A DNA stretch of 64,000 nt, taken from Bacilli bacterium. GTDB lineage: Bacteria > Bacillota_I > Bacilli_A > ML615J-28 > CAG-698. The stretch lies in contig JAGCUR010000012.1 of assembly GCA_017962745.1 (NCBI GenBank), positions 1-64,000 of the forward strand, given 5' to 3'. The position numbers were made by a program, and so were the translations under genes. The notes below the pieces were generated by a model. The model had not been told where the DNA came from, made no database searches, and worked only from the letters and a program-made list of their open reading frames with translations. Each line of letters opens with the position of its first letter. The first letter of the stretch is position 1. This document shows positions 37,970 through 63,288 of this stretch, one piece after another.

Positions 37970-38045
37970 GGTCTTGTGGTGTAGTGGTTAACATGCCAGT
38001 CTGTCACACTGGAGATCGCGGGTTCAAGTCCCGTCAAGACCGCCA
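37970..38045 (+). tRNA. tRNA-Asp (GTC)
   Basis: Acceptor GGTCTTG/CAAGACC, anticodon stem CCAGT/ACTGG with loop CTGTCAC, CCA encoded. Confidence 0.95.
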
Positions 38046-38054
38046 GTTTATGAT

Positions 38055-38131
38055 GCGCCAGTAGCTCAACTGGATAGAGCGTTTGGCTACGGACCAAAAG
38101 GCTGTGGGTTCAAGTCCTATCTGGCGTACCA
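38055..38131 (+). tRNA. tRNA-Arg (ACG)
   Basis: Acceptor GCGCCAG/CTGGCGT, anticodon stem TTTGG/CCAAA with loop CTACGGA (anticodon ACG, normally deaminated to ICG), CCA encoded. Confidence 0.95.
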
Positions 38132-38153
38132 TTTTTAATTTAATACTAGTAAT

Positions 38154-38230
38154 CGGGAAATAGCTCAGCTTGGTAGAGCGCTTGGTTTGGGACCAAGATG
38201 TCGCAGGTTCGAATCCTGTTTTCCCGACCA
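38154..38230 (+). tRNA. tRNA-Pro (TGG)
   Basis: Acceptor CGGGAAA/TTTCCCG, anticodon stem CTTGG/CCAAG with loop TTTGGGA, CCA encoded. Confidence 0.95.
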
Positions 38231-38232
38231 GT

Positions 38233-38306
38233 GCAGGTATAGTTCAAAGGCAGAACGTCAGCCTTCCAAGCTGAATATGCGAGTTCGATTCTCGTTACTT
38301 GCTCCA
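38233..38306 (+). tRNA. tRNA-Gly (TCC)
   Basis: Acceptor GCAGGTA/TACTTGC (one G:U), anticodon stem TCAGC/GCTGA with loop CTTCCAA, CCA encoded; two bases after tRNA-Pro. Confidence 0.95.
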
Positions 38307-38319
38307 GATTGAATAATAG

Positions 38320-38351
38320 CATTGATACAAATTGGTATCAGTGTTTTTTTT
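38320..38351 (+). terminator. Terminator of the tRNA cluster
   Basis: CATTGATAC (38320-38328) pairs with GTATCAGTG (38335-38343), one G:U, followed by eight T. Confidence 0.88.
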
Positions 38352-38455
38352 ATTTTTGTAGATGCGTTAGAAGATTGAACAAATATAGTAAAATAAAAAT
38401 GACACGAAATTATCTAATTAGGCTCAACAATAATTAAATGCTTCATTATAATTCG

Positions 38456-38484
38456 TTGCATTTGTATAACAAATGTGATACAAT
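38456..38484 (+). promoter_or_regulatory. Autoregulated promoter of the RelB/Fic module
   Basis: TTGCAT (38456-38461), 17 bases, TACAAT (38479-38484). CATTTGT (38459-38465) and ACAAATG (38469-38475) form a dyad within the spacer, a likely antitoxin operator. Confidence 0.75.
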
Positions 38485-38503
38485 GATAGTGAGGTGAATG
38501 ATT

Positions 38504-38842
38504 ATGGATATTAAAGAAAATAAGAATGAATTGATTCATATTAGGATTGAGCCAACCATTAAAGATAAATCTGAAGATATTTTTAAAAAGTTAGGAATAA
38601 ATATGTCTTATGCAGTATCGTTATTTTTAAATCAAGTGATACTAAAAAATGGTTTTCCGTTTGCAGTTGAGTTACCACAAAAAAATGAAAGTGAAATTGA
38701 AGCACTTGCAAGAATAATTGAGTCAACGGGTGGAAATGGAGAAGTTAATGATCGAAATCAAAAAATTATCCATCTATATTCAGTTGGTGACATCGATTAT
38801 GAAACAGCTGTGTTTGCAATAAAGAGGAGTTTTGTAAAATAA
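38504..38842 (+). CDS. RelB/DinJ-like antitoxin
   Basis: A 112-residue protein. ATG 38504 is chosen over 38498 because GAGGTG then lies 7 bases away. LIHIRIEPTIKDKSEDIFKKLGINMSYAVSLFLNQV is a RelB/DinJ-type ribbon-helix-helix; the following NGFPFAVELP is also typical. The tail (NDRNQKIIHLYSVGDIDYETAVFAIKRS) would bind the toxin. It overlaps a truncated Fic-type toxin gene by one base. Confidence 0.88.
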   Translation: MDIKENKNELIHIRIEPTIKDKSEDIFKKLGINMSYAVSLFLNQVILKNGFPFAVELPQKNESEIEALARIIESTGGNGEVNDRNQKIIHLYSVGDIDYETAVFAIKRSFVK

Positions 38843-38928
38843 TGAAAGACCCATATGTATATGGTGGAACTAATGTATTGATTAACCTTGAAAAATATGA
38901 ATACAACTATCATCAAATAAAGAAATAG
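38842..38928 (+). pseudogene. Truncated Fic/Doc family toxin gene
   Basis: A 28-codon frame beginning MKDPYVYGGTNVLINLEKYE, which matches the first residues of Fic-type toxins that pair with RelB-like antitoxins (MKDPY-Y-GTNVL). It ends in TAG, and the Fic motif and the rest of the domain are absent from the following sequence, so the toxin is lost while the antitoxin gene is intact. It starts at the TAATG junction with the antitoxin. Confidence 0.7.
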
Positions 38929-38979
38929 TATAATAAAATATATATGTGTGCCAATTAGGTTCTGGTGGTGCGTCAAGAC

Positions 38980-39017
38980 AAAGATAATGTCAAATATATT
39001 AGACATTATCTTTTAAA
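38980..39017 (+). terminator. Terminator after the antitoxin remnant
   Basis: A 12-bp stem (38980-38991 with 39002-39013), ten-base loop, TTTT including the end of the right arm. Confidence 0.75.
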
Positions 39018-39071
39018 TATGATCAAAATACGTATGCTTTTTAATTAATTTTGACAAACGTTGTCTGTAAG

Positions 39072-39100
39072 TTGCAAAAGAATAGTTGGCATAATATAAT
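39072..39100 (+). promoter_or_regulatory. Promoter of the lipoprotein gene at 39149
   Basis: TTGCAA (39072-39077), 17 bases, TATAAT (39095-39100). Confidence 0.65.
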
Positions 39101-39148
39101 TAACATATAGACATTATAATAAAATACGAGATGAAAGGACATTAAGAA

Positions 39149-40753
39149 ATGAAAAGACTGTGGTATGTATTATTAATAACATGTTCATGTTTATTTTTAG
39201 TAGCATGTTCTAATAATTCCTCAACTGCAAAAATTGAGACTAGCAAATCAGGTAAGATTAATACAACTATCTATTCTCAAGAAGAAGTTAAAAAGGGAAA
39301 AGTAGAAATTACTCCCCTTTTAAAGACTGATGATAAAGAAATAACTGATGATGGAAAAGGATTGTATTGCATTACACTATTACAAGATGGTGCAGGTAGT
39401 GTAACAATTCCAGAAGAAAAAGTGCAAGCAGGTACTACTGTTACAGTAAATGCTACTCCAGATAATGATTGGAAAATAGTATCATATGTTTTAGACGATC
39501 AAATTGTTCAATCTAATTCATTTGTTATGCCAGAGCATGATGTAACTTTTAAAGTTATATTTCAAAATAAAAAGCATAATGTAGATTTAGCGGGATATGG
39601 CGATGAAAGCTGGATTATTCGCAATAGTGGGCCAGACTGTGTTGAAGGAGAAACATTCTATTTTTCAATCTTGATGGGTGATGATAGTTTTCGCTACTAT
39701 GAATATGAAGATATTTTTGTTAGATCTAGTTCGTATAATGAACAAGGTGAATATACATATTATCAAGTAACAAAAATTAACGATAATGATTATTCATTTA
39801 TAATGCCAGAAAATGATTGTGTAATTGGCTGTAATACTCATGAATATGGAAAAATTTTAGAAATAATAGTAAAAGATAAAGATTATAATTCCATCGGGTA
39901 TATAAATAAAGATGAAAACCAAGCTTCTGATTATATTGATTTAACAATGTCAATTGATGGTAAGTCGTTTTCTGTTGGTGAATATGCAAAACGTATACAA
40001 GCTATAATTACTATTAATAACCTAAATCCACTTTATCAAATTGAATATATTACGACGACTAATTACGGCTCTTATGAAGGACATGAAGCTACTAAAATTG
40101 ATGATACTCATTATAGCTTTGATGTAGTTTACGGATATCTATATGTTTTTTTAAAGGATTATGAGATTCCAAAAGGTACATATAACGTTAACTGCCTAGA
40201 TACACAAAATGGTAGTTTGCAAGTGGATGTAGCCTATGCGGCACCAGGCGAGACAGTTATAGTTACAGCTACACCAGATGAAGGATATTATCTTGCTAAA
40301 CTTCAATATGTTGTAGGCGATAGTAATGAATATGTGGATATAGAGCGTATAGAAGATATTTATTCATTTGTAATGCCTGAAGGTGAAGTTAATATCAAAG
40401 CAACATTTATATCAGTTAATCAAGTAGAAGGTCACATACGTATAATTTATGATTGGACCGAAGAAGAGATGACAATTGAGCAACTTCAATTAGAAATTGA
40501 AATAGTATATATCAATGAAGAATATATTAATCAGCCATATAGTGAAAACATTACAAATGATTTGGTTTTATATTTTGAAAATGGAAGTAATGTTGAACTG
40601 AGACTTCATTATAAAGATATGTATACTGTTCAAAGTGTCACTTATAGTTCTACATATTCTTTGTATTCAGCTATGTCAGCGGTAAGCGGTGGAACGTGTG
40701 ATTGTATTTTAAATATTGATGGTAGTTTTATGCTTGAGATACATATTAGATAA
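39149..40753 (+). CDS. Lipoprotein with InlB B-repeat-like domains
   Basis: A 534-residue exported lipoprotein: signal peptide and lipobox LVAC with acylated C20, then a low-complexity stalk. Two segments of the divergent InlB B-repeat type are visible: GSVTIPEEKVQAGTTVTVNATPDND ... FVMPEHDVTFKVIF (near 90-135) and GSLQVDVAYAAPGETVIVTATPDEG ... FVMPEGEVNIKATF (near 353-425), plus at least one weaker unit between them ending IMPENDC. Such repeats are extracellular and may bind host or sugar surfaces. ATGAAAGGA precedes the start. It is followed after 15 bases by a membrane protein gene. Confidence 0.8.
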   Translation: MKRLWYVLLITCSCLFLVACSNNSSTAKIETSKSGKINTTIYSQEEVKKGKVEITPLLKTDDKEITDDGKGLYCITLLQDGAGSVTIPEEKVQAGTTVTVNATPDNDWKIVSYVLDDQIVQSNSFVMPEHDVTFKVIFQNKKHNVDLAGYGDESWIIRNSGPDCVEGETFYFSILMGDDSFRYYEYEDIFVRSSSYNEQGEYTYYQVTKINDNDYSFIMPENDCVIGCNTHEYGKILEIIVKDKDYNSIGYINKDENQASDYIDLTMSIDGKSFSVGEYAKRIQAIITINNLNPLYQIEYITTTNYGSYEGHEATKIDDTHYSFDVVYGYLYVFLKDYEIPKGTYNVNCLDTQNGSLQVDVAYAAPGETVIVTATPDEGYYLAKLQYVVGDSNEYVDIERIEDIYSFVMPEGEVNIKATFISVNQVEGHIRIIYDWTEEEMTIEQLQLEIEIVYINEEYINQPYSENITNDLVLYFENGSNVELRLHYKDMYTVQSVTYSSTYSLYSAMSAVSGGTCDCILNIDGSFMLEIHIR

Positions 40754-40768
40754 GGAAAAGACTAGATT

Positions 40769-42280
40769 ATGAAAACATTAATTAAAAAAAGTAAAATAGC
40801 TATAGCTTTTATGAAGTTATCTTTAGTGCTAATTATTGTAGGAATGGCTTTATTTGCGGTTGGCGTTAAAGCAGCAAAGAAAACTACAATGACTAGAAAA
40901 GGTGATACCGTTTGGTTTGGATATTATCCAAAGACAAAAGCAACTGAAGAAGAACTAAATGGCATGAGCGCAAATGCTGATGCAGATGGTTTTTATACAT
41001 CGGGAAAAGAAAAGTTTGTTAAGGTTACAAATGCAATTCCTAAAGAACATTATGAAACTGCTAATACGACTTACATTCCATTTGATGATGATAGCCAGCC
41101 TGTAGAAGGGGCTACATATTATTTCAAATTAGAACCAATTGAGTGGATGGTAATGGTAGATGATGAAGAAGCCAATACTGTAAAGCTTGTATCTAGATAT
41201 TATCTTGATACTCATTGCTGGCTATCAGGCGAAAATGTTCAACAGATCATCATGGGTGTATCATATTTAAATATCGCTGAAGGTGTTCCGGAAAACACTC
41301 CTGCTAATAGCTGGCGCTATAGCGAGATGCGTTCTTGGCTAAACGGTACATTTTTAAACTTTGCTTTTAGCGCTGAAGAGCAAAAAAGTATTTATCTATT
41401 TGCTAATAGAAATACGATTGATTATAGATCTAATGATGAGACAACTATTACTTACGATTATGTAACTATCGGTGATAGAAGCGATTATGATGCGGCAGGA
41501 GATAATGGTAGACCTACCGATTACGCTATAGTTAAAGGTGCTACTTGGTGCTACAATAAAGATCACGTCTATTATTATGTTAATGATTCATTTGCTAACT
41601 TCGGTAATAATACGGTTAGAACGTATAGACATGATGAACATGAAAAATGTGCTTCAGTTGATAGCGTAGATGCTGTTAGACCTATCATTTATGTTAATAG
41701 GTCAGATGCTAAGATATTAGCTACGGAAAAGCAAAAAGAAGCACGTACATCAAACTGGATGATAATTGTAGGGGTAATTGGAACTATTAGTGGAGCAATA
41801 CTAGCTATCCCAATGATGATTATTACTGGTAAAAAACAAAAGGCTACTAAGAAAGAAACTGGTCATGATTATAAACTAACTAAAAAAGAAACTGCCATGA
41901 TTGCTCCGGGATTAGTATTACTAATCTGCGGAATAGTATTGATTGTTTTACAAATATCTATCTTTGGTGGTGGAATTGGTGGAAAGAAATTAACTCCAGG
42001 TATTTATCTCCAACAAGGTTCTTATTCAGGAGGTGGCATTGCCCAAGTTGGTCAGACTGCATATCGCCTTAATAGCGATGGTACATTCGATTATACTGAT
42101 GTTTACAATGGAGGCGGAACTATTTGGTCAGGACACGGAACTTATAAAATGAGCGGTTCTTCAATTACATTCGTATGGAAAGCTAACCCAATGGTCCAAG
42201 AAGGCTATACTTACTCTGCTACTATATATGATAAGAATACATTCGGTAATTCGATGGAAAAATTTAAACGGATAGAATGA
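40769..42280 (+). CDS. Membrane protein with an extracellular DUF6273-like domain
   Basis: A 503-residue protein. Membrane segments near 17-35, 328-350 and 373-398. Residues 50-315 resemble DUF6273: IEWMVMVDDEEANTVKLVSRYYLDT, then RYSEMRSWLNGTFLNFAFSAEEQKSI and a closing RPIIYVN. The C-terminal 90 residues are a beta-rich region (LTPGIYLQQGSYSGGG ... YKMSGSSITFVW). The first helix anchors the DUF6273-like part outside. Function is unknown; DUF6273 domains occur in surface proteins of gut Firmicutes. It lies between two lipoproteins and ends with TGA and a terminator. Confidence 0.75.
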   Translation: MKTLIKKSKIAIAFMKLSLVLIIVGMALFAVGVKAAKKTTMTRKGDTVWFGYYPKTKATEEELNGMSANADADGFYTSGKEKFVKVTNAIPKEHYETANTTYIPFDDDSQPVEGATYYFKLEPIEWMVMVDDEEANTVKLVSRYYLDTHCWLSGENVQQIIMGVSYLNIAEGVPENTPANSWRYSEMRSWLNGTFLNFAFSAEEQKSIYLFANRNTIDYRSNDETTITYDYVTIGDRSDYDAAGDNGRPTDYAIVKGATWCYNKDHVYYYVNDSFANFGNNTVRTYRHDEHEKCASVDSVDAVRPIIYVNRSDAKILATEKQKEARTSNWMIIVGVIGTISGAILAIPMMIITGKKQKATKKETGHDYKLTKKETAMIAPGLVLLICGIVLIVLQISIFGGGIGGKKLTPGIYLQQGSYSGGGIAQVGQTAYRLNSDGTFDYTDVYNGGGTIWSGHGTYKMSGSSITFVWKANPMVQEGYTYSATIYDKNTFGNSMEKFKRIE

Positions 42281-42284
42281 GTTA

Positions 42285-42316
42285 ATTAGGCTACTATTTA
42301 GTAGCCTAATTTTTTA
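42285..42316 (+). terminator. Terminator after the DUF6273-like gene
   Basis: An 11-bp stem (42285-42295 with 42302-42312) followed by four more T. Confidence 0.9.
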
Positions 42317-42496
42317 TTGACTCCATTAATAATTGCGATTTAGCCAATATAATTGCATTAAATATATTTAATCTTTAGAATAAAAACAAAAAATACATTG
42401 TGCCCTTATAAAGTTTGCAATAGTATTCTATCTATGCTACCATATGATTATAAATAAGTAAGCTTTCAAGTAGACTTATATATAGAGGAGACAGAA

Positions 42497-45400
42497 ATGA
42501 AAAAGAAAATTTTAAGTTTATTACTTATTGTGCTAATGGTATTCACACTAACTGCCTGCGATATGCTTAATAATATGGGAGGAGGCGGTGGTGGTACTAC
42601 TACCGTGGAAGTGAATTTAGATGAAGTTTATCTAAATGTTCAATCACAAATTAATACTAAAGATGCTTTAACTGATGGTATTACTCTACCAACTAGTTTT
42701 GGTTCAGTAACAATTACTTGGGCATCTGAAAACACAAACCTCATTGATAACCGTGGAAACATCATCACAAGACCTGATGAAGATACTGAGGTTATCTTAA
42801 ATTGTACTTTAACAAGTGCAAAAGAACAAAAGACTTATAAACTAAAAGTCATCATTAAAGCTAAGGATCCTGAACCTGTTAAGGAATTAGCACATCTACC
42901 TGCTAACTTACAAGGTACTTATACTGGTGATGGCGTAACTGTAATAGTTAGTGAGTCAAGTGTAACAATTACAGATCCAAGTGGCACAACTCTTACATTT
43001 GAAATCTATGTTGATAATAATGAATATTTTATCGAAGAAAATGGACTAAGAGTATTTTGCACATTTGAAAATGATACAGTTACAAATAGTCATGGTACAT
43101 TTACAAAAGAAAATGGGCAGACGACTCAACATGATCCTGTTGCTAACTTGCCAGAAAGCTTACAAGGCACATATAAGAGTGGAAACATTACTGTTATTGT
43201 AAGTGCATCAAGTGTTGTAGTTAAAGAAGAAGGCAACGATCAAAATACTTATGTATTATATGTAGATGCAAATAACCAATATTATGTTGAAGAAGAAGGC
43301 CAAAAGATTGTTTGTACATTTGGTACTGATTCTGTAACAAATAAATTTGGTACATTTGTAAAAGACAATGGACAAACTCAACATGATCCTGTTGCTAATT
43401 TACCGGAAAGTTTGCAAGGTATTTATAAATCAGGTGATATTACAGTTGTTGTTGAAGAATCCAACGTAACTGTAAAGCAACAAGGTCAAAATGATCACAA
43501 ATACGTTCTATATGTTGATTCAAATAATCAATATTATGTAGAAGAAGAAGATCAAAAGATTGTTTGTACATTTGGTACTGATTCTGTAACAAATAAATAT
43601 GGTACATTTACTAAAGATAATGGTCAACAAACAACTACTATTTCTACTTTAGCTGAAGCTAAGAAAGCAGGTGTTGGCCAAACTTGCAAGGTTAGAGCTG
43701 TAGTTATTGCTATAAGCAATGTAAGCTTCTTACTACAAGATGATACTGATACAATATTAGTATACTTAGGCACAGAATATGCTAAAGATTTAGCAGTTGG
43801 TGATGAAGTAGAACTTGAAGGTGCAATTGGCTCTTATAGTAATACAGTTCAATTTACTACTGCAAACTATAAAAAAGTTGGAACTAAGACAGTTAATACT
43901 CCTACTCCAAGAGTATTAGATGCAGCTGCACTTGATGCATTAGCAACAACATCAACTCCTGTTTTAGAATTTGTTCAACTTGAAGGTTCTTTAAGAATAT
44001 CTGGTAACTACATGAATGTTGAAGTGAATGGTGCTACAGCTAAAGGTAGCTTAGCAACTAATCTAGATTTATCTAGCATGGCTAACAAAGTAGTTATCGT
44101 TAAAGGATATTATTTATACAATACGAGTGGTGGTAAATATGCTAACATCATTGCTACTAGTGTAGAATTATCTGCTAACCAAGAAGAATTACCTATTTCT
44201 TCAATCGCTGAAGTATTAGCTGGTCAAGTTGGTAAGACTTATATGATTGAAGCAACAGTTGTAGCTTTATGTAATGGTATAGTAGTAGTTAGTGATGAAA
44301 GTGGAATTATCTCACTTAACTATAGTTCAAACTTTGATTCTTCAGCTTTAAAACTAGGAGATAAGTTATCTATCCAAGGCCCTTCATATGAGCATGGTGG
44401 CGCAATTCAATTGAACTACCCAGAATATAAAGTAATTGGCACAAACCCTGTAACTCATCCAGAACTTATCGAATTAAATGCTAAGACATTTGATGCTTTA
44501 GATAACGATCAAATTACTACTAAATATGTTAAGTTAACTGGTGAACTTGTAGTTTCTAATGACAAATACTTCAATATAATCGTTGATGGTAGCACACTAA
44601 AGGGAAGCATTGCTTATCCTACTAATGCTGATGCCTTAAAGGCATTAGATGGACACAGCCTTGTAGTAGAAGGCTACTTCGTATACATCACTACAAGTGC
44701 AGGCGAAAAGTATGCATATATCGTAACTACTGATCTATCTGATCTTGGTGAAGCATTAACTATTGCCCACCTACCTGCTAACTTACAAGGTACATATAAA
44801 GCTGAAGGTCTAACAGTAATAGTTAACGAATCAAGCGTAGTTGTAAGTGAAGCTGAACATGGTGATCACAACTATGTATTATACGTTGATGCAGATGGAT
44901 CTTACTACGTATTAGAAGAAGGTGAAAAGATTGTTTGCACATTTGCAGATAATCAAGTAACTAATAAGTTTGGAACATTTATTAAAGATACAAGTGGTGA
45001 ACAAACTGCTCCAGTACATGCTGGTACAAAAGATGATCCATACGATGCAGCTGATGCTATATTCGTAGCAACACACTTAAGCTCGTCACAACCAACAGCT
45101 GATAAGTTCTATATCACTGGTACAATCATTGATGATCCAACAGCTGATTATTGTAACTTCAATTTTGCTAGCGGTGATAAAACATTATTAGCATATGGTT
45201 TATCAAATGCAAATGGTACAAAACGTTTTGGAACAAAGAGAGATATTGCAGAACTTCCAGTTAAGAAGGGTGATGTAGTAGTTGTATGTGCTAATATCCA
45301 AAACTTCAATGGTCAACCAGAAATGGTTAATGCATGGATCGTATCAATCAATGGTGAAGAACAAACTGCTGATCCAGTAGTTGTACCTACAGGTGATCCA

Positions 45401-48400
45401 GTACATGCTGGTACTGCTGCTGATCCATTTGATGCAGCTGATGCAATTCTAGTAGCATCAAAACAAGCTCCATCAACATCTGCATTCACAGCTGATAAGT
45501 ATTATATCAGCGGTACAATCATTGATGATCCAACAGCTGATTATTGTAACTTCAGCTTTGCAAGCGATGGTAATACAATCTTAGCATATGGACTTTGGAC
45601 ATTTGATGGAAATCAACGTTACGGTTCAAAGAGAGATATTGCAGAACTTCCAGTTAAGAAGGGTGATGAAGTTATAGTTTGTGCAAACATTCAAAACTAT
45701 AACGGCAAATATGAAATGGTTAACGCATGGATTGTATCAATCAATGGTGTAAACTTAGGTGAAGAAGGCCAAGAAGATGAGTTAGCTAACATACCAGAAA
45801 GCTTACAAGGTACATATAAAGCTGACGGTATTGCAGTAATTGTTGGCGAATCATTCGTAATTGTCAGTGAAGATGGCAAAGATGAAATAACTTATCAATT
45901 ATATGTTGATAGCGAAAACAATTATTATGTACTAGAAGAAGGCGAAAAGGTTATTTGTAAATTTGGTGAAAACCAAGTAACAAATAAATATGGCACATTC
46001 GTAAAAGAAGAAGAACAAGTTCACGATCCAGAAGCTGACTTACCGGAAAGCTTACAAGGTGTCTATAGAAACGAATATGCAGTTATAGAAGTATGGGCAG
46101 GTGTAGTTGCTGTTTGGGAAAACGGCAATGAAGAAGCTACATTCTATATAATTTATGTCGATCCAACTGGTCAATACTATATTGAATCAGAAGATGGTAA
46201 AGCAATTATTTGCACATTCGAAGATGGCAAAGTAAGCAACGCATTTGGCATATTCATTAAAGATGGTAGTGATGAACCACTTCCAGAAATTATTGATTAT
46301 GCAGAACTTGATGAAGCATTTCATGGAATCTATGAAAACGAAGAATATAGAGTAATCGTAACAACTTACACTATTGAAGTTTATAAAGCTGGTAGTGAAG
46401 ATGGCGAAGAATACACTATATGTATCGATGAAAACTTTGCACTATGCTTTGAAATGGGCGAAGAAAGAATCTATATTAGCTTCGAAGGCGCTATCTTAAA
46501 TACTGACTTTGGAACATTTACTAAATCAGAAGAACAATTAACAGATGAATATTGGGTTGCTAAAACAAAAGCTAGCTTTGAAGAAGGTTGGACAAATATT
46601 AGAACTGTTATGAGTGTTTCACTAAATGAAGAAGCTAATGGCTGTACTTTAACTTGGGAATCAAGTAATGAAGATGTATTATCATCAGATGGTCATGTAA
46701 CTCTTCCTGATGAAGAAACAGAAGTTACTCTAACTCTTACAATCACTAAAGGTGAAGTTGTAGATACATTGGATATTGTAATTACAGTTCTACCTGCTTC
46801 TCCAATTTCTACAATTCTTTCATTATCTGAAGAAGAACTAGAAAATAGTGCTTATGCAGTTAAAGGTGTTGTAGTTGCTATATGTGATGATGGCTTCTTA
46901 GTAAAAGATTCTACAGGTTACATCTTAGCATATGATGCTACAAACTTCTTCTTTAGAGATGACTTAGAACTTGGTGAAGAAGTTGTATTACGAGGATTTG
47001 TAGAACCATATAATGGAACATTAGAATTCACTGGCTTCTTTGGTTACTATGCTACAGGTGAAACTGTTGATTTAGAAGACCCTGAATTTGCTAATTTAGA
47101 TGCTGACTTAGCTGCTAGATTATCAAAGAACATAGAAGTTATGCCAATCGTATTAAAAGGTGTCTTAACAATTTACAATGGCAAATATATTAATATTGCA
47201 TTGAGTGATTCATCATTTATCGGTAGCATTAATGGTAACGTAGATGAATATGCTGACTTAGAAAATAAACATGTTATTGTTAAAGGATATGTAATTAGCG
47301 TTAATAATCAATATGTTAATATCATTCCTCTTGGAATTGAAGAAGATGAAGAATTCATCCCAACTCCAGGCGATAAGGATAATATTGTAGATGGCAGCAC
47401 AATTACTAAAACATTTGAAGTAAATGAAGATGGTACTTGGACAGTTATGTTTTCTATTATTGCTAGTGATCAATATGAAAGTCCTAGATTTGTTCTTCGC
47501 GATATATTAGCATTTGGCTTCTTAAATGGTGAATTTAACGAAGAATTATATCTAGAAGAATCAGTTATTCTTCCAGATAAATCTAATCTAATTATCACTG
47601 AAGATGGTAATACAATTACTATCAAGGTTATCGTTCCAGAAGCATTAGTTGTTAAATATACTTCAGAATATTACGCAGCAGCCAAAGAAGGAACAGCTAA
47701 AGGCGGTTTATACTTAGATTTATATCTTGAATTCTATGATGGTGAAGTTGATTATAGTCCAGTTGATAATTATTATTATGGATCTTATTACTTCTTTAGA
47801 TCATTCTTAGATGTAGTAGAAACATCTGGTGATGGTACATTTGATCATCCAATTAGTGCAGCTGATGCTAGAGATATAGCAGCATATTTACCAGCAGGTA
47901 TTTGGACAAATGATGAATTCTATATCATTGGAACAGTAGTTGGTGAACCAAATGCTAAATATGGTAATTTAGCACTAGATACTTATTTTGAAACTACATT
48001 TACAGTATATGGCTTATACACAAATGATGGATTGTATCAATACGGTACAGCAGCTGGTAGAGTTGAAGAAATCCCAGTTCATGATGGTGATGAAGTATTA
48101 TTGTTAGCTCAAATTTACCATTATGTAAGTGATAGCGGTGTTTCTACTTATGAAACAATGAAAGCTAAACTTATTGCGGTTAATGAAGATGCAGTAACAT
48201 ATGAAGCACTACCAGAATATAGAATGATTGATATAACTCCTCTAAATGGTGTTAAAGAAGGATATGTATACTGTATTGCTGGTTATAGAGATAATCAATT
48301 ATATAGCAGTGAATTTGCAACTGTAGAAAATGGTGTAATTCATGGTCGAGTTAGATATGTTTGTGATTCATTCAGAGTCTTTGAATATCTACAACCAGAA

Positions 48401-49699
48401 GAAGGCGAAGAATTTAGTGGTTATACAAGATACACTAATGTTTTAGGCTTAGATGCAACTGAATGTGCATTCCATGGTCTTGATGATCTATCTGGTACAA
48501 AGTCATTTGCAGTAAATGAAGATGGCTCATGGACAGTTGCAATGATACTTGAAGCAAGTGAAGCAATCGCTAATCCTAGTTTTGAAGTATTAGATGTTAT
48601 AGCATTTGGTTACCAAAATGGTGATTGGGATAACTCATTATATTTAGAAGAAACAGTTCTATCAAATGACAAATCTAATTTAACTGTGGAAAGCGAAAAT
48701 GGTGTTTTAACTGTAACTATTACAGTAGCAAAAGAATTAGTAGCTAAATATACTTCTGAATACTATTATCCAGATATGGATGGTACTTGTTATAAAGGTG
48801 GTATAGCACTTGACTTATACATCAAATTCTTTGATGGTGATATTGATATCAGTTATGATAACAACTACTTTGGCGCATTCTACTACTTCGGTTCATTCCT
48901 AGATGTAGTAGAAACTACAGGCGATGGAACAATTGATAATCCATTAACTGCAGCTGATGCATATAACTTAGCAGCATACTTACCAGCAGGCGTTTGGACA
49001 AATGATGAATATTATATCGAAGGAACTGTCGTTAGCGTTGATCCTGCGTGGTGTAACTTAGAATTCCAAGTTGGTGAAAATACATTCTTAGTTTATGGTA
49101 TTGCTACTGCTGATGGCGAGTACAAATATGGTACTTCTCCAAATAAAGTATCTGGTATTCCAGTACAAGCTGGTGATAAAGTATTATTGTTAGCTCAAGT
49201 TTACAATTATGTAAAAGATGGCGTTTCTACACTTGAAGCCAAAGATGCTAAACTAATCCAAGTTAATGATGAAGAAGTAGCTTATGAATTAGTTGTTGAA
49301 GAAGAATATGAAACAAGCCATGCTGGTACAGCTGATGATCCACTAGATGGTGCTGATGTAGCACTTATCGCAAGTCATTTGGACGCTTCTAGCAAAGAAC
49401 AAACAGAAATTAGATATTATATCGAAGCAGTTGTAGCCGAAGTTGAAGGTGAACCAACTAGCACTTATTGTAATTTTCATTTAGTTACAGGAACAGAAAA
49501 ATTAGTATTAGTTTATGGTTTAGCTGAAGATGAAGCATTCACTCAACGCTATGGAACTAGTCGTGAAATTGCTACTCTTCCTGAAGGACTTGCTGCCGGC
49601 AGTACTGTAGTTTTATATGGTTACATTCAAAACTACTCTGGCACATTCGAAATCCAAAAAGCTCAACTATTAAAAATAGTTCCTGCTCAAGGTGAATAA
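42497..49699 (+). CDS. Giant multi-repeat lipoprotein
   Basis: A 2400-residue exported lipoprotein: signal peptide, lipobox LTAC with C21, then a six-glycine linker. Approximate domain order: Ig-like 37-126; three copies of an LQGTY beta unit (132-375); two OB-fold-like DUF5689-type modules (378-755); LQGTY unit 4 (757-835); two DUF6359-like modules with GTxxDPxDAADA (839-1087); LQGTY units 5-7 (1096-1345); Ig-like 2 (1350-1436); third OB module (1437-1620); a unit of about 140 residues containing ExxLVxKYTSEYY (1635-1776) plus a DUF6359-like module (1779-1910); a linker; the same pair again (2000-2258); last DUF6359-like module (2275-2400). It is very acidic. It stands alone between terminators, with GAGGAG before the start. 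Adhesion or surface scaffolding is likely, but nothing shows a ligand. Confidence 0.8.
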   Translation: MKKKILSLLLIVLMVFTLTACDMLNNMGGGGGGTTTVEVNLDEVYLNVQSQINTKDALTDGITLPTSFGSVTITWASENTNLIDNRGNIITRPDEDTEVILNCTLTSAKEQKTYKLKVIIKAKDPEPVKELAHLPANLQGTYTGDGVTVIVSESSVTITDPSGTTLTFEIYVDNNEYFIEENGLRVFCTFENDTVTNSHGTFTKENGQTTQHDPVANLPESLQGTYKSGNITVIVSASSVVVKEEGNDQNTYVLYVDANNQYYVEEEGQKIVCTFGTDSVTNKFGTFVKDNGQTQHDPVANLPESLQGIYKSGDITVVVEESNVTVKQQGQNDHKYVLYVDSNNQYYVEEEDQKIVCTFGTDSVTNKYGTFTKDNGQQTTTISTLAEAKKAGVGQTCKVRAVVIAISNVSFLLQDDTDTILVYLGTEYAKDLAVGDEVELEGAIGSYSNTVQFTTANYKKVGTKTVNTPTPRVLDAAALDALATTSTPVLEFVQLEGSLRISGNYMNVEVNGATAKGSLATNLDLSSMANKVVIVKGYYLYNTSGGKYANIIATSVELSANQEELPISSIAEVLAGQVGKTYMIEATVVALCNGIVVVSDESGIISLNYSSNFDSSALKLGDKLSIQGPSYEHGGAIQLNYPEYKVIGTNPVTHPELIELNAKTFDALDNDQITTKYVKLTGELVVSNDKYFNIIVDGSTLKGSIAYPTNADALKALDGHSLVVEGYFVYITTSAGEKYAYIVTTDLSDLGEALTIAHLPANLQGTYKAEGLTVIVNESSVVVSEAEHGDHNYVLYVDADGSYYVLEEGEKIVCTFADNQVTNKFGTFIKDTSGEQTAPVHAGTKDDPYDAADAIFVATHLSSSQPTADKFYITGTIIDDPTADYCNFNFASGDKTLLAYGLSNANGTKRFGTKRDIAELPVKKGDVVVVCANIQNFNGQPEMVNAWIVSINGEEQTADPVVVPTGDPVHAGTAADPFDAADAILVASKQAPSTSAFTADKYYISGTIIDDPTADYCNFSFASDGNTILAYGLWTFDGNQRYGSKRDIAELPVKKGDEVIVCANIQNYNGKYEMVNAWIVSINGVNLGEEGQEDELANIPESLQGTYKADGIAVIVGESFVIVSEDGKDEITYQLYVDSENNYYVLEEGEKVICKFGENQVTNKYGTFVKEEEQVHDPEADLPESLQGVYRNEYAVIEVWAGVVAVWENGNEEATFYIIYVDPTGQYYIESEDGKAIICTFEDGKVSNAFGIFIKDGSDEPLPEIIDYAELDEAFHGIYENEEYRVIVTTYTIEVYKAGSEDGEEYTICIDENFALCFEMGEERIYISFEGAILNTDFGTFTKSEEQLTDEYWVAKTKASFEEGWTNIRTVMSVSLNEEANGCTLTWESSNEDVLSSDGHVTLPDEETEVTLTLTITKGEVVDTLDIVITVLPASPISTILSLSEEELENSAYAVKGVVVAICDDGFLVKDSTGYILAYDATNFFFRDDLELGEEVVLRGFVEPYNGTLEFTGFFGYYATGETVDLEDPEFANLDADLAARLSKNIEVMPIVLKGVLTIYNGKYINIALSDSSFIGSINGNVDEYADLENKHVIVKGYVISVNNQYVNIIPLGIEEDEEFIPTPGDKDNIVDGSTITKTFEVNEDGTWTVMFSIIASDQYESPRFVLRDILAFGFLNGEFNEELYLEESVILPDKSNLIITEDGNTITIKVIVPEALVVKYTSEYYAAAKEGTAKGGLYLDLYLEFYDGEVDYSPVDNYYYGSYYFFRSFLDVVETSGDGTFDHPISAADARDIAAYLPAGIWTNDEFYIIGTVVGEPNAKYGNLALDTYFETTFTVYGLYTNDGLYQYGTAAGRVEEIPVHDGDEVLLLAQIYHYVSDSGVSTYETMKAKLIAVNEDAVTYEALPEYRMIDITPLNGVKEGYVYCIAGYRDNQLYSSEFATVENGVIHGRVRYVCDSFRVFEYLQPEEGEEFSGYTRYTNVLGLDATECAFHGLDDLSGTKSFAVNEDGSWTVAMILEASEAIANPSFEVLDVIAFGYQNGDWDNSLYLEETVLSNDKSNLTVESENGVLTVTITVAKELVAKYTSEYYYPDMDGTCYKGGIALDLYIKFFDGDIDISYDNNYFGAFYYFGSFLDVVETTGDGTIDNPLTAADAYNLAAYLPAGVWTNDEYYIEGTVVSVDPAWCNLEFQVGENTFLVYGIATADGEYKYGTSPNKVSGIPVQAGDKVLLLAQVYNYVKDGVSTLEAKDAKLIQVNDEEVAYELVVEEEYETSHAGTADDPLDGADVALIASHLDASSKEQTEIRYYIEAVVAEVEGEPTSTYCNFHLVTGTEKLVLVYGLAEDEAFTQRYGTSREIATLPEGLAAGSTVVLYGYIQNYSGTFEIQKAQLLKIVPAQGE
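43301..43346 (+). repeat. 46-bp exact repeat inside the giant lipoprotein, copy 1
   Basis: Identical to 43553-43598, 252 bp (84 codons) downstream, in LQGTY units 2 and 3. Confidence 0.9.
43553..43598 (+). repeat. 46-bp exact repeat inside the giant lipoprotein, copy 2
   Basis: Second copy of 43301-43346; in frame with it. Confidence 0.9.
45119..45161 (+). repeat. 43-bp exact repeat inside the giant lipoprotein, copy 1
   Basis: Identical to 45512-45554, 393 bp (131 codons) downstream, in the first two DUF6359-like modules. Confidence 0.9.
45512..45554 (+). repeat. 43-bp exact repeat inside the giant lipoprotein, copy 2
   Basis: Second copy of 45119-45161. Confidence 0.9.
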
Positions 49700-49710
49700 T
49701 TAAATAATTA

Positions 49711-49743
49711 AGACATCCAAGAATTCTTGGATGTCTTTTTTTT
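49711..49743 (+). terminator. Terminator of the giant lipoprotein gene
   Basis: A perfect 26-bp palindrome (49711-49736) followed by seven T. Confidence 0.93.
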
Positions 49744-58377: not shown

Positions 58378-59487
58378 ATGAGAAAAATCGCTTTATTTTT
58401 GTCAGTATTAATTTGCGTTTTTAGTATCGCTCTTTTAGCTGGTTGTGGCGGTAAAAAGGGTGCTGAACTTGCCGTTGTTACAGACGTAGGACAACTAATG
58501 GATGGTGGATTCAACCAAGGTACTTATGAAGGCGTAAAACAATACGCAGAAAAAAACAATAAGACTTATGCTTATTATCAACCTGAAAATGGTGCTAACG
58601 CTACAGATAATGACCGTATCGCTGCTATGGAATTAGCAATCGAAAATGGTGCTAAAGTTATCGTTGCTCCAGGATTCTTACAAGCTGCTGCTATGGAAAC
58701 CGTAGCAAAAGCTCACACTGATGTTAAGTTCGTATTCGTTGATGGTTGGAACATGGGATTAGCTAATGTTACTGCTATTTCATACAAAGAACAAGAATCA
58801 GGATTCTTAGCTGGTTATGCTGCTGTTATGGATGGCTACACTAAACTTGGTGGCGTATTCGGTGGTGGTGGATCTAACCCTGCTTGTAATAGATTCTGTT
58901 GGGGTTATATGCAAGGTGCTGAAGCTGCAGCTGCAGAAAAAGGTATCACTGTAGAAATGAAGATCTCTTTCAGACATGGTTCTTCATTTAGCGCTTCTAA
59001 CGAATTACAATCTCAAGTATCTTTATGGTATTCAGCTGGTACTGAAGTTGTATTCTCTTGCGGTGGATCAATGGTTAACTCAGTAATCGCTGCTGCTAAC
59101 GAAACTCAAAACGGTAAAGTTATCGGTGTTGACACTGACCAATCTGGTTTATCTGATAGAGTTATCACATCTGCAGTTAAAGGCTTATCTTCATCTGTAA
59201 TGTTAGTATTACAAGAATACTATGCAGGCGAATGGGATGCTAAACTTGCTGATAAGACTTCTAACTTAGGTGCTGCAGAAGATTCTACAGGACTTCCTAC
59301 AGCTGATGGTTCTTGGAGATTCTCTACATTCACTAAAGAACAATATAACACTGTATTCCAATCAATTAAGAACGGAACTATTACACCTAGTGAAACTACT
59401 CCAGAAGATTGCTCAGCAGATGGTGCTTGGTTAGCTGCTGCTTTAGTATTAACTCATGTAACAGTATTACATGAATCAGGAAAATAA
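58378..59487 (+). CDS. BMP family lipoprotein, substrate-binding protein for nucleosides
   Basis: A 369-residue lipoprotein: signal peptide with lipobox LLAGC, acylated C23. The BMP/PnrA-type domain begins AVVTDVGQLMDGGFNQGTYEGVKQYA; DGGFNQ and later GGGGSNPACNRFCWGYMQGA and GVDTDQS line the nucleoside site in this family. It binds purine nucleosides outside the membrane for the ABC permease encoded next. AGGAGG lies 14 bases before the ATG, longer than usual. Confidence 0.92.
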   Translation: MRKIALFLSVLICVFSIALLAGCGGKKGAELAVVTDVGQLMDGGFNQGTYEGVKQYAEKNNKTYAYYQPENGANATDNDRIAAMELAIENGAKVIVAPGFLQAAAMETVAKAHTDVKFVFVDGWNMGLANVTAISYKEQESGFLAGYAAVMDGYTKLGGVFGGGGSNPACNRFCWGYMQGAEAAAAEKGITVEMKISFRHGSSFSASNELQSQVSLWYSAGTEVVFSCGGSMVNSVIAAANETQNGKVIGVDTDQSGLSDRVITSAVKGLSSSVMLVLQEYYAGEWDAKLADKTSNLGAAEDSTGLPTADGSWRFSTFTKEQYNTVFQSIKNGTITPSETTPEDCSADGAWLAAALVLTHVTVLHESGK

Positions 59488-59547
59488 GATTTAATATAAA
59501 AAATTACAATTAATCAATTCTTTTAAAAAGGAGATGCCTTATAGGCG

Positions 59548-61122
59548 ATGGTAGATATGGCTGTAGATAACTATATTATCGAAATGCGAAACATTACCAA
59601 AGAATTTCCTGGAATAAAAGCAAATGATGACATTACATTGCAACTTAAGAAGGGCGAGATTCTCGCCCTTCTTGGGGAAAATGGGGCAGGTAAATCAACC
59701 TTAATGAGTGTCCTTTTTGGCCTTTATCAACCGGATTCTGGTAGCATTTATAAAAATGGAGAAGAAGTAATAGTAAGAGACCCTAACGATGCAACGGCAC
59801 TGGGAATTGGAATGGTACATCAACACTTTAAACTTGTTGAATGTTTTACTGTACTCGATAATATAATTCTTGGTGATGAAGATACAAAAGCAGGGTTTGT
59901 TTTAAAAAAGGCCGCACGTGCTAAAGTAGAAGACTTAATGAATAGATATGGCTTACATGTTGATCTAGATGCTAAGGTTGAAGATATAACTGTCGGGATG
60001 CAACAAAGAACTGAAATTTTAAAGATGTTATTTAGAGATAACGAAATTTTAATCTTTGATGAACCTACTGCCGTACTTACTCCGCAAGAAATTGATGAAT
60101 TAATGAAGGTAATGAAGAATTTAGCAGCCGAAGGCAAATCTATTTTATTCATTACACATAAACTTAATGAAATTATGGCGGTTGCTGATCGTATTACTGT
60201 ATTAAGAAAAGGTAAATATATCGGTACCGTAAATAAAACTGAAACAACTATCGAAGATTTATCTACAATGATGGTTGGCCGTCCTGTTCAACTTCAAGTT
60301 GTAAAAAAAGAAGCAAAACCAACTGATGTAGTTTTAGAAGTTAAGAACTTAACGGTTAAAAATAAAGATCGAAGACATACTAAAGAACTAGTTAAAGATG
60401 TTAATATTACAGTCCGTTCTGGGGAAATAGTATGTATCGCCGGAATTGATGGTAATGGACAATCAGAATTTGTTAAAGCGATAACTGGTATTGTTCCTCA
60501 AACTTCTGGTGAAATAATTTATAAAGGGGAAGATGTTTCCCATAAATCAATTAGATATCGAAACACTAATCGTTTTTCGCATATCCCTGAAGATAGACAC
60601 AAATATGGTCTAATTCTCGACTTTAGATTAGATTATAATGAAGTATTACAAAATTACTTCGAAGATGAATTTGTAAAATATGGGTTCATGAAATTCAAAG
60701 ATATTAAAGATTACGCTGACAAGCTTATTGAAAAGTATGACGTTAGAAGCGGTCAAGGTAGCGCTACTATCGCCAGAAGCATGTCAGGCGGGAATCAACA
60801 AAAAGCCATTGTTGCGCGTGAAATGGAAAGAAAGCACGAACTTTTAATCGCTGTGCAACCAACTAGAGGATTAGATGTTGGTGCCATTGAATTCATTCAT
60901 AGCGAAATGGTTAAAAGAAGAGATAATGGTGATGCGATATTATTAGTATCACTAGAACTTGATGAAGTAATGAACCTTTCAGATAGAATATATGTCATGT
61001 ATGAAGGTGAAATAGTGGCTGAAGTTGATCCAAAGAAGATCACTGTTCAAGAACTAGGGTTATACATGTCAGGTGCAAAGAGAGATATAAGAGGTGCTAA
61101 TGATGAAAAATCCGATTCTTAA
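59548..61122 (+). CDS. ABC transporter ATP-binding protein, nucleoside type
   Basis: A 524-residue double-ATPase. The first half has Walker A GENGAGKST and VGMQQRTEI as signature; the second has a degenerate Walker A, GIDGNGQSE, and signature SGGNQQK, a pattern of the NupO/RbsA-type proteins. It powers the two permeases that follow. The start is uncertain: ATG 59548 lies 14 bases after AAGGAG, and ATG 59557 is also in frame. Confidence 0.93.
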   Translation: MVDMAVDNYIIEMRNITKEFPGIKANDDITLQLKKGEILALLGENGAGKSTLMSVLFGLYQPDSGSIYKNGEEVIVRDPNDATALGIGMVHQHFKLVECFTVLDNIILGDEDTKAGFVLKKAARAKVEDLMNRYGLHVDLDAKVEDITVGMQQRTEILKMLFRDNEILIFDEPTAVLTPQEIDELMKVMKNLAAEGKSILFITHKLNEIMAVADRITVLRKGKYIGTVNKTETTIEDLSTMMVGRPVQLQVVKKEAKPTDVVLEVKNLTVKNKDRRHTKELVKDVNITVRSGEIVCIAGIDGNGQSEFVKAITGIVPQTSGEIIYKGEDVSHKSIRYRNTNRFSHIPEDRHKYGLILDFRLDYNEVLQNYFEDEFVKYGFMKFKDIKDYADKLIEKYDVRSGQGSATIARSMSGGNQQKAIVAREMERKHELLIAVQPTRGLDVGAIEFIHSEMVKRRDNGDAILLVSLELDEVMNLSDRIYVMYEGEIVAEVDPKKITVQELGLYMSGAKRDIRGANDEKSDS

Positions 61123-62323
61123 GCAAATATTAGCATCAGTTCTTTGTATCATTTGTGGTTTTATAGTTGGTATTTTGGTAATGATACTAATTACAGTTGT
61201 TAATAAAGACTTATCAGTATCTAATTTATTTGATGGTATTAAGTATTTATTCTTAGGTCCATTCTCTTCACCTAATGCGGCAACTGTTAAAAGAAACTTA
61301 GGTAATATGATATTCTATATTACCCCACTAATTATGACCGGCTTATCAGTAGCGATAGCCTTCAAGACCGGCCTATTTAACATTGGGGCACCAGGACAGT
61401 TTTTAATGGGTACATTAGGATCACTAATGATTGCCTTACACATTAACTGTGCTGATAACCGTGGCCTTGGTATCCTTGTATGGTTACTTGCAATCGTAGT
61501 TGGAGTAATTTGCGGAGCTGCGTGGGGCGCAATACCAGGAATATTTAAAGCCTTCTTTGATATAAATGAAGTAGTTGTCTGCATCATGACTAACTGGATA
61601 GCAGCAAATATTGTAACTTGGGTATTTTCAAATCAAACATCACTCATTAATATCCCTGAAGGAAAGAGTGCATACTTAATTAAAACAGGAGGCCTAGGTA
61701 CTTATACACCTACCTTTGGCTTAGATAAGATATTACCAGGATCATACATTGATGGTGGTATAATCATCGTTATAATTATCGCGATAATCTTCTTTATCGT
61801 TATGTCTAAAACTAAATTTGGTTTTGAACTAAAAGCCTGTGGAGCTAACAAGCATGCCGCTAAATATGCTGGTATGAACGAAAAGAAAAATATCGTCTTA
61901 TCAATGGTAATAGCAGGAGGCCTTGCTGCTGTTGGTGGATCATTATACTATCTAAATGCAGGTATTGAATTACAATATGGTAGCATTTATGCAAATCTAC
62001 CGGAATATGGCTTTAACGGAATTCCAGCCGCCTTGCTTGCTAACTGTGATCCAGTCGGGGTTATCTTTAGTGCATCGTTTTTAAGATACATATCAGCGTC
62101 TGGTTCAAGATTACAACTTGCTGGATACAATGCATACATTGCATCAGTCATATCTTCAGTAATTATTTACTTTGCTGGCTTCTCTAGATTATTCTTAATG
62201 TTACTATCTAAGAAAAGAAAGAAAGAGGAAGCAAAAGTAGTAACTGCTATTGAGGTTCCACCGGTAGTTGAAGAAAAGACTGAAGAGGCACCTGAAGAAG
62301 AGAATAAGGAGGAAACCGCATAA
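61103..62323 (+). CDS. ABC transporter permease, nucleoside type, first subunit
   Basis: A 406-residue membrane protein of the BPD_transp_2 (branched-chain amino acid/ribose/nucleoside) family. MKNPILKQ at 61103 is chosen because GAGGTG is 6 bases upstream; ATG 61100 and GTG 61094 are in frame. About nine helices; TGLSVAIAFKTGLFNIGAPGQFLMG and AAKYAGMNEKKNIVLSMVIAGGLAAVGG are family landmarks. The acidic tail (EEAPEEENKEE) is cytosolic. It overlaps the ATPase gene by 20 bases and the next permease by one base. Confidence 0.92.
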   Translation: MKNPILKQILASVLCIICGFIVGILVMILITVVNKDLSVSNLFDGIKYLFLGPFSSPNAATVKRNLGNMIFYITPLIMTGLSVAIAFKTGLFNIGAPGQFLMGTLGSLMIALHINCADNRGLGILVWLLAIVVGVICGAAWGAIPGIFKAFFDINEVVVCIMTNWIAANIVTWVFSNQTSLINIPEGKSAYLIKTGGLGTYTPTFGLDKILPGSYIDGGIIIVIIIAIIFFIVMSKTKFGFELKACGANKHAAKYAGMNEKKNIVLSMVIAGGLAAVGGSLYYLNAGIELQYGSIYANLPEYGFNGIPAALLANCDPVGVIFSASFLRYISASGSRLQLAGYNAYIASVISSVIIYFAGFSRLFLMLLSKKRKKEEAKVVTAIEVPPVVEEKTEEAPEEENKEETA

Positions 62324-63288
62324 TGGAAAACCTAATACTTATTCTTCAAAAAACGATAATTTATGCTATTCCGCTTCTAATCGTCGCTTTAGGTGGTGTT
62401 TTTGCGGAAAGAAGTGGTGTTATCAACTTAGCTCTTGAAGGTGAAATGATCTTCGGAGCATTCATGGGTGCAATATTTGTATACTTGCTACAAAAAGGTG
62501 GCGTATGGCTTGATAAGCCACAACTAACATTTATTTGTGCTCTAGCAGTTGGTGCTGGAAGTGGTGCACTATATTCATTACTATTATCATTTTCAGCTGT
62601 TAAACTTAAATCAGATCAAACAATCAGTGGTACAGCATTAAATATGCTTGCTCCTACCATTGTTAATACATTTGGACTAGTATTCTTCCTTCAAGAAAAG
62701 ATTAATATGCCATATACATTTACTGGTTATGCCATTATTAATTCTAATCTTCCAGGATTCTTAAGAATATTATTCGATAAGGCATACTTATCTACATTCG
62801 TGGTTATCTTAGTGTTTGCCCTACTTTCTATTTGGTTATACAAATCAAAAGTAGGCACCCACCTAAGAGCCTGTGGTGAGCATCCGCAAGCAGCTGACTC
62901 AGTTGGTATTAATGTAGCTAAGATGAGATACTTAGGAACTACAATTTCAGGTGCCCTAGCAGGACTTGGTGGATATGCATATATCGCAACTGTTGCTAAT
63001 GGAACAGCCGAAGCAACAATCGGTGGTATGGGATTCTTAGCCTTAGCTATCATGATATTTGGTAACTGGAATCCAATCGGTATCGTAATTGGCGCTTTAA
63101 TGTTTGGCTTCTTAAAGTGTATCGGTGCGGTATCATCATCAGTTCCATTCTTAGCCAATATCGGATTACCTCCTTATTTCTATAACATCGTTCCATACGT
63201 AGTAGTACTAGTCGTATTAGTATTATTTAGAAAGAAATCAGGTTGTCCAAAAGCTGAAGGTATACCTTACGAAAAAGGACAAAGATAA
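62323..63288 (+). CDS. ABC transporter permease, nucleoside type, second subunit
   Basis: A 321-residue permease with about eight helices and the family start IPLLIVALGGVFAERSGVINLALEG, then RACGEHPQAADSVGINV and GFLALAIMIFGNWNPIG. It completes a BmpA-NupA-NupB-NupC-like importer. It begins at the TAATG junction with the first permease; a terminator follows. Confidence 0.93.
   Translation: MENLILILQKTIIYAIPLLIVALGGVFAERSGVINLALEGEMIFGAFMGAIFVYLLQKGGVWLDKPQLTFICALAVGAGSGALYSLLLSFSAVKLKSDQTISGTALNMLAPTIVNTFGLVFFLQEKINMPYTFTGYAIINSNLPGFLRILFDKAYLSTFVVILVFALLSIWLYKSKVGTHLRACGEHPQAADSVGINVAKMRYLGTTISGALAGLGGYAYIATVANGTAEATIGGMGFLALAIMIFGNWNPIGIVIGALMFGFLKCIGAVSSSVPFLANIGLPPYFYNIVPYVVVLVVLVLFRKKSGCPKAEGIPYEKGQR

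Follow-up and report, generated by a model that had tools for sequence, protein, structure and literature searches.

A 2400-residue modular lipoprotein of an uncultured Bacilli bacterium, its two unnamed domain families, and its possible role as an adhesive stalk

Organization of the locus

The window, that is, the whole stretch of 64,000 nucleotides analysed here (assembly G000), carries three consecutive ORFs of 534, 503 and 2400 aa. They lie where the initial annotation had placed them and sum to 3437 residues, against its "about 3400". The first (39149..40753, + strand) specifies a lipoprotein containing two InlB B-repeat (Flg_new_2) domains, and the second (40769..42280, +) a membrane protein with a borderline match to DUF6273. 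The third (42497..49699, +) encodes a giant modular lipoprotein with a lipobox (LTAC), a mature mass of approximately 261 kDa and a pI of 4.15.

The three genes had been regarded as a single envelope locus, an interpretation which we rejected. A terminator-like hairpin with a T run (42284..42311, +) closes the upstream two-gene unit, and a promoter-like site (TTAATA-16-TATAAT, 42326..42353, +) precedes the giant gene; both were recognized by consensus match only, as was a terminator-like hairpin (49710..49737, +) 3' of it. The first two lie between the upstream cassette (39149-42280) and the giant, and separate them. The congener (G001) lacks the cassette, no homolog of the 503-aa protein being found there, and in another genus (G021) both cassette proteins are adjacent (73% identity for the 503-aa and 44% for the 534-aa protein) in a genome without the giant. 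Since it is absent from the one and paired in the other, we consider the cassette a separate accessory pair. The congener retains the order giant-tig-clpX and the upstream DUF2804 gene, with other genes occupying the gap. Because the congener has wholly different genes in place of 37970-42280 (L068 and L022 compared), this stretch, from the tRNA cluster to the giant, is a variable spot beside tRNA genes.

An ORF of the RelB/DinJ antitoxin family (38498-38842), flanked by the tRNA cluster and the cassette, has no toxin-sized ORF of at least 90 aa next to it and is possibly an orphan antitoxin. In G021 (L100:531-8335) the cassette adjoins ORFs which, judged by eye, resemble a C5-methyltransferase, a GHKL ATPase and a response regulator, and its surroundings are possibly a defence or mobile neighbourhood.

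Anchor and module composition of the giant lipoprotein

Upon inspection the N-terminus of the giant, MKKKILSLLLIVLMVFTLTAC-D, reads as a basic-hydrophobic signal peptide with the lipobox LTAC and its Cys21, and the lipobox also occurs in most of its relatives. The description of the giant as a lipid-anchored modular surface protein is therefore well founded as far as its sequence (signal peptide, LTAC-D, Cys21) can indicate. Every module is acidic, the OB and OB-type modules having a net charge of -3 to -22 and a pI of 4.05-4.97. No catalytic domain was found in Pfam, NCBIfam and PDB searches, nor a nuclease domain in Pfam and NCBIfam.

Profile searches returned exactly the module counts which had been read by eye: seven LQGTY units [3e-26 to 2e-35], three OB modules [4e-83 to 8e-86], five "DUF6359-like" modules, here designated D [5e-48 to 3e-59], two TSEYY units [7e-80 and 2e-80] and two stretches of aBig_2 (PF20578) [8.4e-21, 74 bits against a curated cut-off of 27]. 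The module E-values (1e-26 to 1e-86) involve some circularity, since these very copies contributed to the profiles; independent support comes from matches of the same profiles to other proteins and other genomes. Named modules and one unassigned stretch together span 2243 of 2379 residues.

All modules lie on the + strand. The first aBig_2 Ig-like domain (42611..42874, aa 39-126), within the constant N-terminal end, is followed by LQGTY units 1-3 (42890..43621, aa 132-375, starting at 132, 216 and 300), of which the second and third are duplicates specific to this lineage. Next come OB module 1 (43640..44176, aa 382-560), OB module 2 (44195..44746, aa 567-750), LQGTY unit 4 (44765..44992, aa 757-832), D1 (45014..45367, aa 840-957) and D2 (45401..45760, aa 969-1088), the last sharing 72% identity with D1. 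The second half comprises LQGTY units 5-7 (45785..46531, aa 1097-1345, starting at 1097, 1180 and 1269), the second aBig_2 domain (46571..46804, aa 1359-1436), OB module 3 (46805..47350, aa 1437-1618), TSEYY unit 1 (47381..47830, aa 1629-1778) and D3 (47831..48199, from about aa 1777). A region of ~90 aa without a module match (48200..48472, aa 1902-1992), present in the congener too, precedes TSEYY unit 2 (48473..48922, aa 1993-2142), D4 (48923..49282) and D5 (49316..49693), which start at about aa 2141 and 2274; D5 forms the C-terminal end.

Domain families and predicted folds

The LQGTY and TSEYY units had been described as matching nothing that could be named, and this was confirmed, neither having a match to any Pfam model or PDB sequence.

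A two-unit LQGTY model, built from 25 natural tandem pairs, predicts that each unit is an autonomous eight-stranded beta domain (pLDDT 94.1), and its pTM of 0.56 would fit two independent beads. Foldseek comparison of this model with the PDB gave no match with an E-value below 0.001. The best whole-domain match, and the solved structure closest in fold to a single LQGTY unit, is the lipoprotein YedD [4hwm; probability 1.00, TM-score 0.54 by target, rmsd 3.1 Å, 10% identity, E 0.055]. YedD is a single domain of 117 aa, whereas the LQGTY unit has ~75 aa and occurs in tandem. With eight strands per unit in the model and YedD as the best single-domain match, a lipocalin- or calycin-like barrel might be suggested. 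Against a viral fold library nothing was found at E<=0.001, the alignments, sliding clamps included, all being of high rmsd. The possibility that LQGTY is an OB variant was rejected, as profile comparison shows no similarity; nor did it support a further OB fold in the second half of the OB modules.

The model of TSEYY together with the following D module, built from 7 rows (pLDDT 84.2), matches both OB-containing chains and Ig-like sandwiches (E 0.0004-0.04). The OB matches, at fold level only, include many LysRS chains (probability 0.99-1.00), RPA and SSB (0.98), with E-values of 0.005-0.04. The Ig matches (best E 0.0004, high rmsd) include the AGS-C Ig-like domain (probability 0.99) and nanobodies and ZP domains (roughly 0.6-0.9). 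The match table carries no residue ranges, and it is our own reading that the D half accounts for the OB matches and the TSEYY half for those to Ig domains. On that reading the TSEYY units may be Ig-like sandwiches, and the D modules are predicted to be OB folds. The D modules also resemble the OB modules in profile comparison [probability 64%, 6e-5], and tRNA_anti-codon (PF01336), an OB family, matches the whole giant at 40.2 bits (curated cut-off 27). Matches of PF01336 to single modules are weaker, with 5 of 7 found at E<=1 (best 8.8e-6).

The assignment of D modules to DUF6359 (PF19886) was rejected. None of 12 modules matches at E<=1 (curated cut-off 23.2 bits), no protein of the same genome exceeds the cut-off (the highest, 15.7 bits, is in another protein), and hhalign comparison with a true DUF6359 member gave a probability of 0.4%. 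The likeness lies in a motif layout, judged by eye, of a GTxxDP start, a helix and OB-like strands. The giant would be largely a new combination of known folds, all of them predicted, with two unnamed domain families.

Distribution and relatives

The LQGTY profile matched 3 of 28 family genomes, 3 of 43 order genomes and 9 of 395 genomes sampled across the class. Only in five of these are the matches convincing (G000, G001, G020, G172 and G319), G172 and G319 representing another family of the same class; several weak matches elsewhere in the class (1e-3 to 1e-6, some with stops) were left uncounted. A search of genome contigs with close LQGTY units places among these relatives RGIG8164 (water buffalo rumen), RGIG6850 (sheep rumen) and Tb.RUG.122, the last from the rumen if its name is a guide; with the giant itself such a search returned nothing. 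Megablast against plasmids gave no match, and a scan of viral contigs for LQGTY revealed no relative. TSEYY occurs in G000 and G001 and, by relaxed search, in G319.

Relatives with the same head and tail were found in a second species of the genus (G001, 2355 aa) and in another family (G319). The congener's protein reads aBig, LQ, OB, D, D, LQ, LQ, aBig, OB, OB in its N-terminal part and aBig, OB, TS, D, TS, D, D in its C-terminal part. In G319 an N-terminal piece of 477 aa (aBig, OB, LQ, LQ) lies at one contig end, and another contig end holds a C-terminal piece of 1967 aa in which many LQ and D modules are followed by three TS-D pairs; presumably the two pieces are one gene. G020 has an aBig-plus-OB relative, interrupted by a contig end. 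The main structural finding is that relatives keep the lipobox-aBig end and, at the other end, the TSEYY-OB pairs, while the number and order of LQGTY, OB and aBig modules in the middle vary.

LQGTY units are also found in six- and seven-unit arrays (G020 and G172, respectively), and some other lipoproteins of the genus (802-1399 aa) carry them N-terminally. Besides the giant the genus encodes lipoproteins of 800-2964 aa in all, some with such units, and the suggestion that the giant could be a main surface structure has to be weighed against these. A conserved lipoprotein of 1309-1720 aa (L018:1101-5027, L023:966-5162, L063:5507-10666) has LQGTY at both ends and cysteine-pair repeats in mid-chain, and the one copy scanned had no Pfam match. 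Another giant lipoprotein (2964 and 2815 aa; L087:6807-15698 and L027:569-9013) lies beside ABC permease-like genes, and the one copy scanned, that of L087, has Ig-like and CBM_4_9 domains. A 551-aa lipoprotein (L021:3643-5295) combines the GH18-type motif GVDLDWEYP with an aBig-like domain.

Divergence and module turnover

The giant and its congener homolog share 63% identity with 1029 gap columns, while tig, clpX and the DUF2804 gene product share 92-93%. Other lipoproteins of the genus are likewise only 52-79% identical, and rapid divergence is therefore a property of the class of proteins and not specific to the giant. The dN/dS ratio, 0.08 for tig, is ~0.35 over aa 1626-2400 of the giant and 0.27 over aa 1-206, values which, at the level of these sequences, show constraint and not global positive selection. 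In a tree of LQGTY units, based upon few columns, units 1 and 7 each have a single one-to-one partner in the congener, and units 2, 3 and 6 cluster as lineage-specific copies. Anchor, module order, conserved ends, variable middle and fast divergence can all be read from the sequences compared.

Cell envelope

The initial annotation had raised the possibility of a thin envelope, and this gains weight. In the 97%-complete genome G000 we found neither a penicillin-binding transpeptidase (PF00905) nor a sortase (PF04203), the same searches matching 10 and 3 of 14 control genomes, respectively. Covering these two families among the wall genes, the result supports a wall-poor cell and falls short of proof. 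Given that neither sortase nor transpeptidase was found, lipid anchoring is the plausible route. In a published survey, most genomes of RFN20, a gut lineage mentioned here for comparison, lack mraY and murG (PMC7301438).

Proposed role of the giant lipoprotein

The reading which we favour, and to which we give an even chance, is that the giant is an adhesive stalk, anchored by lipid and variable in length, whose distal tip is formed by TSEYY-OB. It would be exported by the Sec pathway, tethered to the membrane through Cys21, and project as a chain of ~20 small all-beta domains. The N-terminal aBig domain would serve as a fixed base, the LQGTY, OB and Ig domains of the middle as a spacer whose length shifts by gain and loss of modules, and the C-terminal pairs of TSEYY (Ig-like) and OB as the tip in contact with the target (probably some rumen surface polymer or else a neighbouring cell). 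Lipid-tethered beta beads, the absence of a catalytic domain, constant ends and a variable middle are together the build of a stalk which adheres or captures a ligand; adhesion, the spacer and tip roles (the tip role drawn from three C-termini) and the class of ligand are our inference. The modelled units are predicted to act as autonomous beads, and their nearest folds are Ig-like, OB and a small lipoprotein. Such a multi-domain chain could equally, however, belong to a coat whose function is purely structural.

As a passive shield or coat, the giant would be an abundant acidic lipoprotein which replaces the cell wall and binds no specific ligand. This would accord with the large size, strong acidity and variable module number of the giant and with the failure to find a transpeptidase or sortase; in RFN20-type gut Bacilli the full peptidoglycan pathway is often missing (PMC7301438). 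A mere coat would not, however, need the TSEYY-OB order which is kept at the C-terminus across families, and most genomes of the same family lack LQGTY units, so that we think this explanation improbable. Capture of carbohydrate, with LQGTY, TSEYY or OB domains binding plant or host glycans and feeding sugar uptake, is somewhat less doubtful though still unlikely. The named relatives come from the rumen, LQGTY is also N-terminal in an 802-aa lipoprotein which has DUF4886 and matches CBM_20 weakly, and whose gene adjoins nagB-like and permease-like genes (by eye), and the CBM_4_9 match noted above belongs to the 2964-aa lipoprotein of that genome. In the 802-aa protein, however, LQGTY lies between the anchor and the functional domains, which is the position of a spacer; a Pfam scan found no CBM match within the giant itself, and its direct neighbours are tig and clpX, with no sugar genes there.

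The OB modules might instead hold extracellular DNA or RNA for nucleoside uptake, the giant then being a nuclease OB/aBig toolkit without the nuclease. About 9 kb downstream, ORFs for a PnrA/Bmp-type lipoprotein and an ABC ATPase, with permease-sized ORFs (58378-63288), likely specify a nucleoside transporter, nucleosides being what PnrA-type ABC transporters carry. A DUF6359 member from another genome of the class resides in an exported nuclease-like protein which, judged by eye, has an aBig-like domain too. The giant shares export and OB-fold modules with the nucleases YhcR of B. subtilis, SWAN of S. sanguinis (PMC4118848) and ExeM of Shewanella (PMC6085458), and the activity of ExeM is almost abolished when its OB-containing region is deleted (PMC6085458). 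Unlike these enzymes the giant has no nuclease, lamin-tail or phosphatase domain, and its OB modules are very acidic. Because all modules are acidic, as is the protein as a whole, capture of nucleic acid is disfavoured and appears to us quite improbable; moreover, OB folds often bind sugars or proteins.

As an adhesive stalk the giant would resemble the Ig-repeat surface adhesins (aBig_2 PF20578, Big_2, Bact_surface_Ig-like) in being a chain, tethered to membrane or wall, of small beta domains among which Ig units are repeated in variable number. The giant has a lipid anchor in place of a sortase motif, and OB-type and LQGTY domains, not Ig units, make up most of its chain. Mollicute variable surface lipoproteins, such as the vlhA family, are lipid-anchored, repeat-containing and fast-changing proteins of bacteria without a wall; the giant differs in being a single gene with unrelated domains. 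To our knowledge, the anchoring and extension of long surface proteins without peptidoglycan or sortase in wall-poor bacteria has been little studied outside the pathogenic mycoplasmas. We would tentatively extend the stalk reading, although we doubt it in this wider form: LQGTY and TSEYY may be undescribed families of uncultured rumen Bacilli without wall cross-linking, and the giant may found a type of adhesive fibre, tethered to the membrane and independent of a wall, in which small beta-barrel-like domains take the place of Ig repeats along the extensible stalk.

With this analysis the catalogue of bacterial surface modules gains two candidate domain families, and a defined, conserved architecture is described in gut Bacilli which apparently lack penicillin-binding proteins. 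If it is true that the tip binds a rumen substrate, the giant would offer a way to learn how these uncultured cells keep their place in the rumen.
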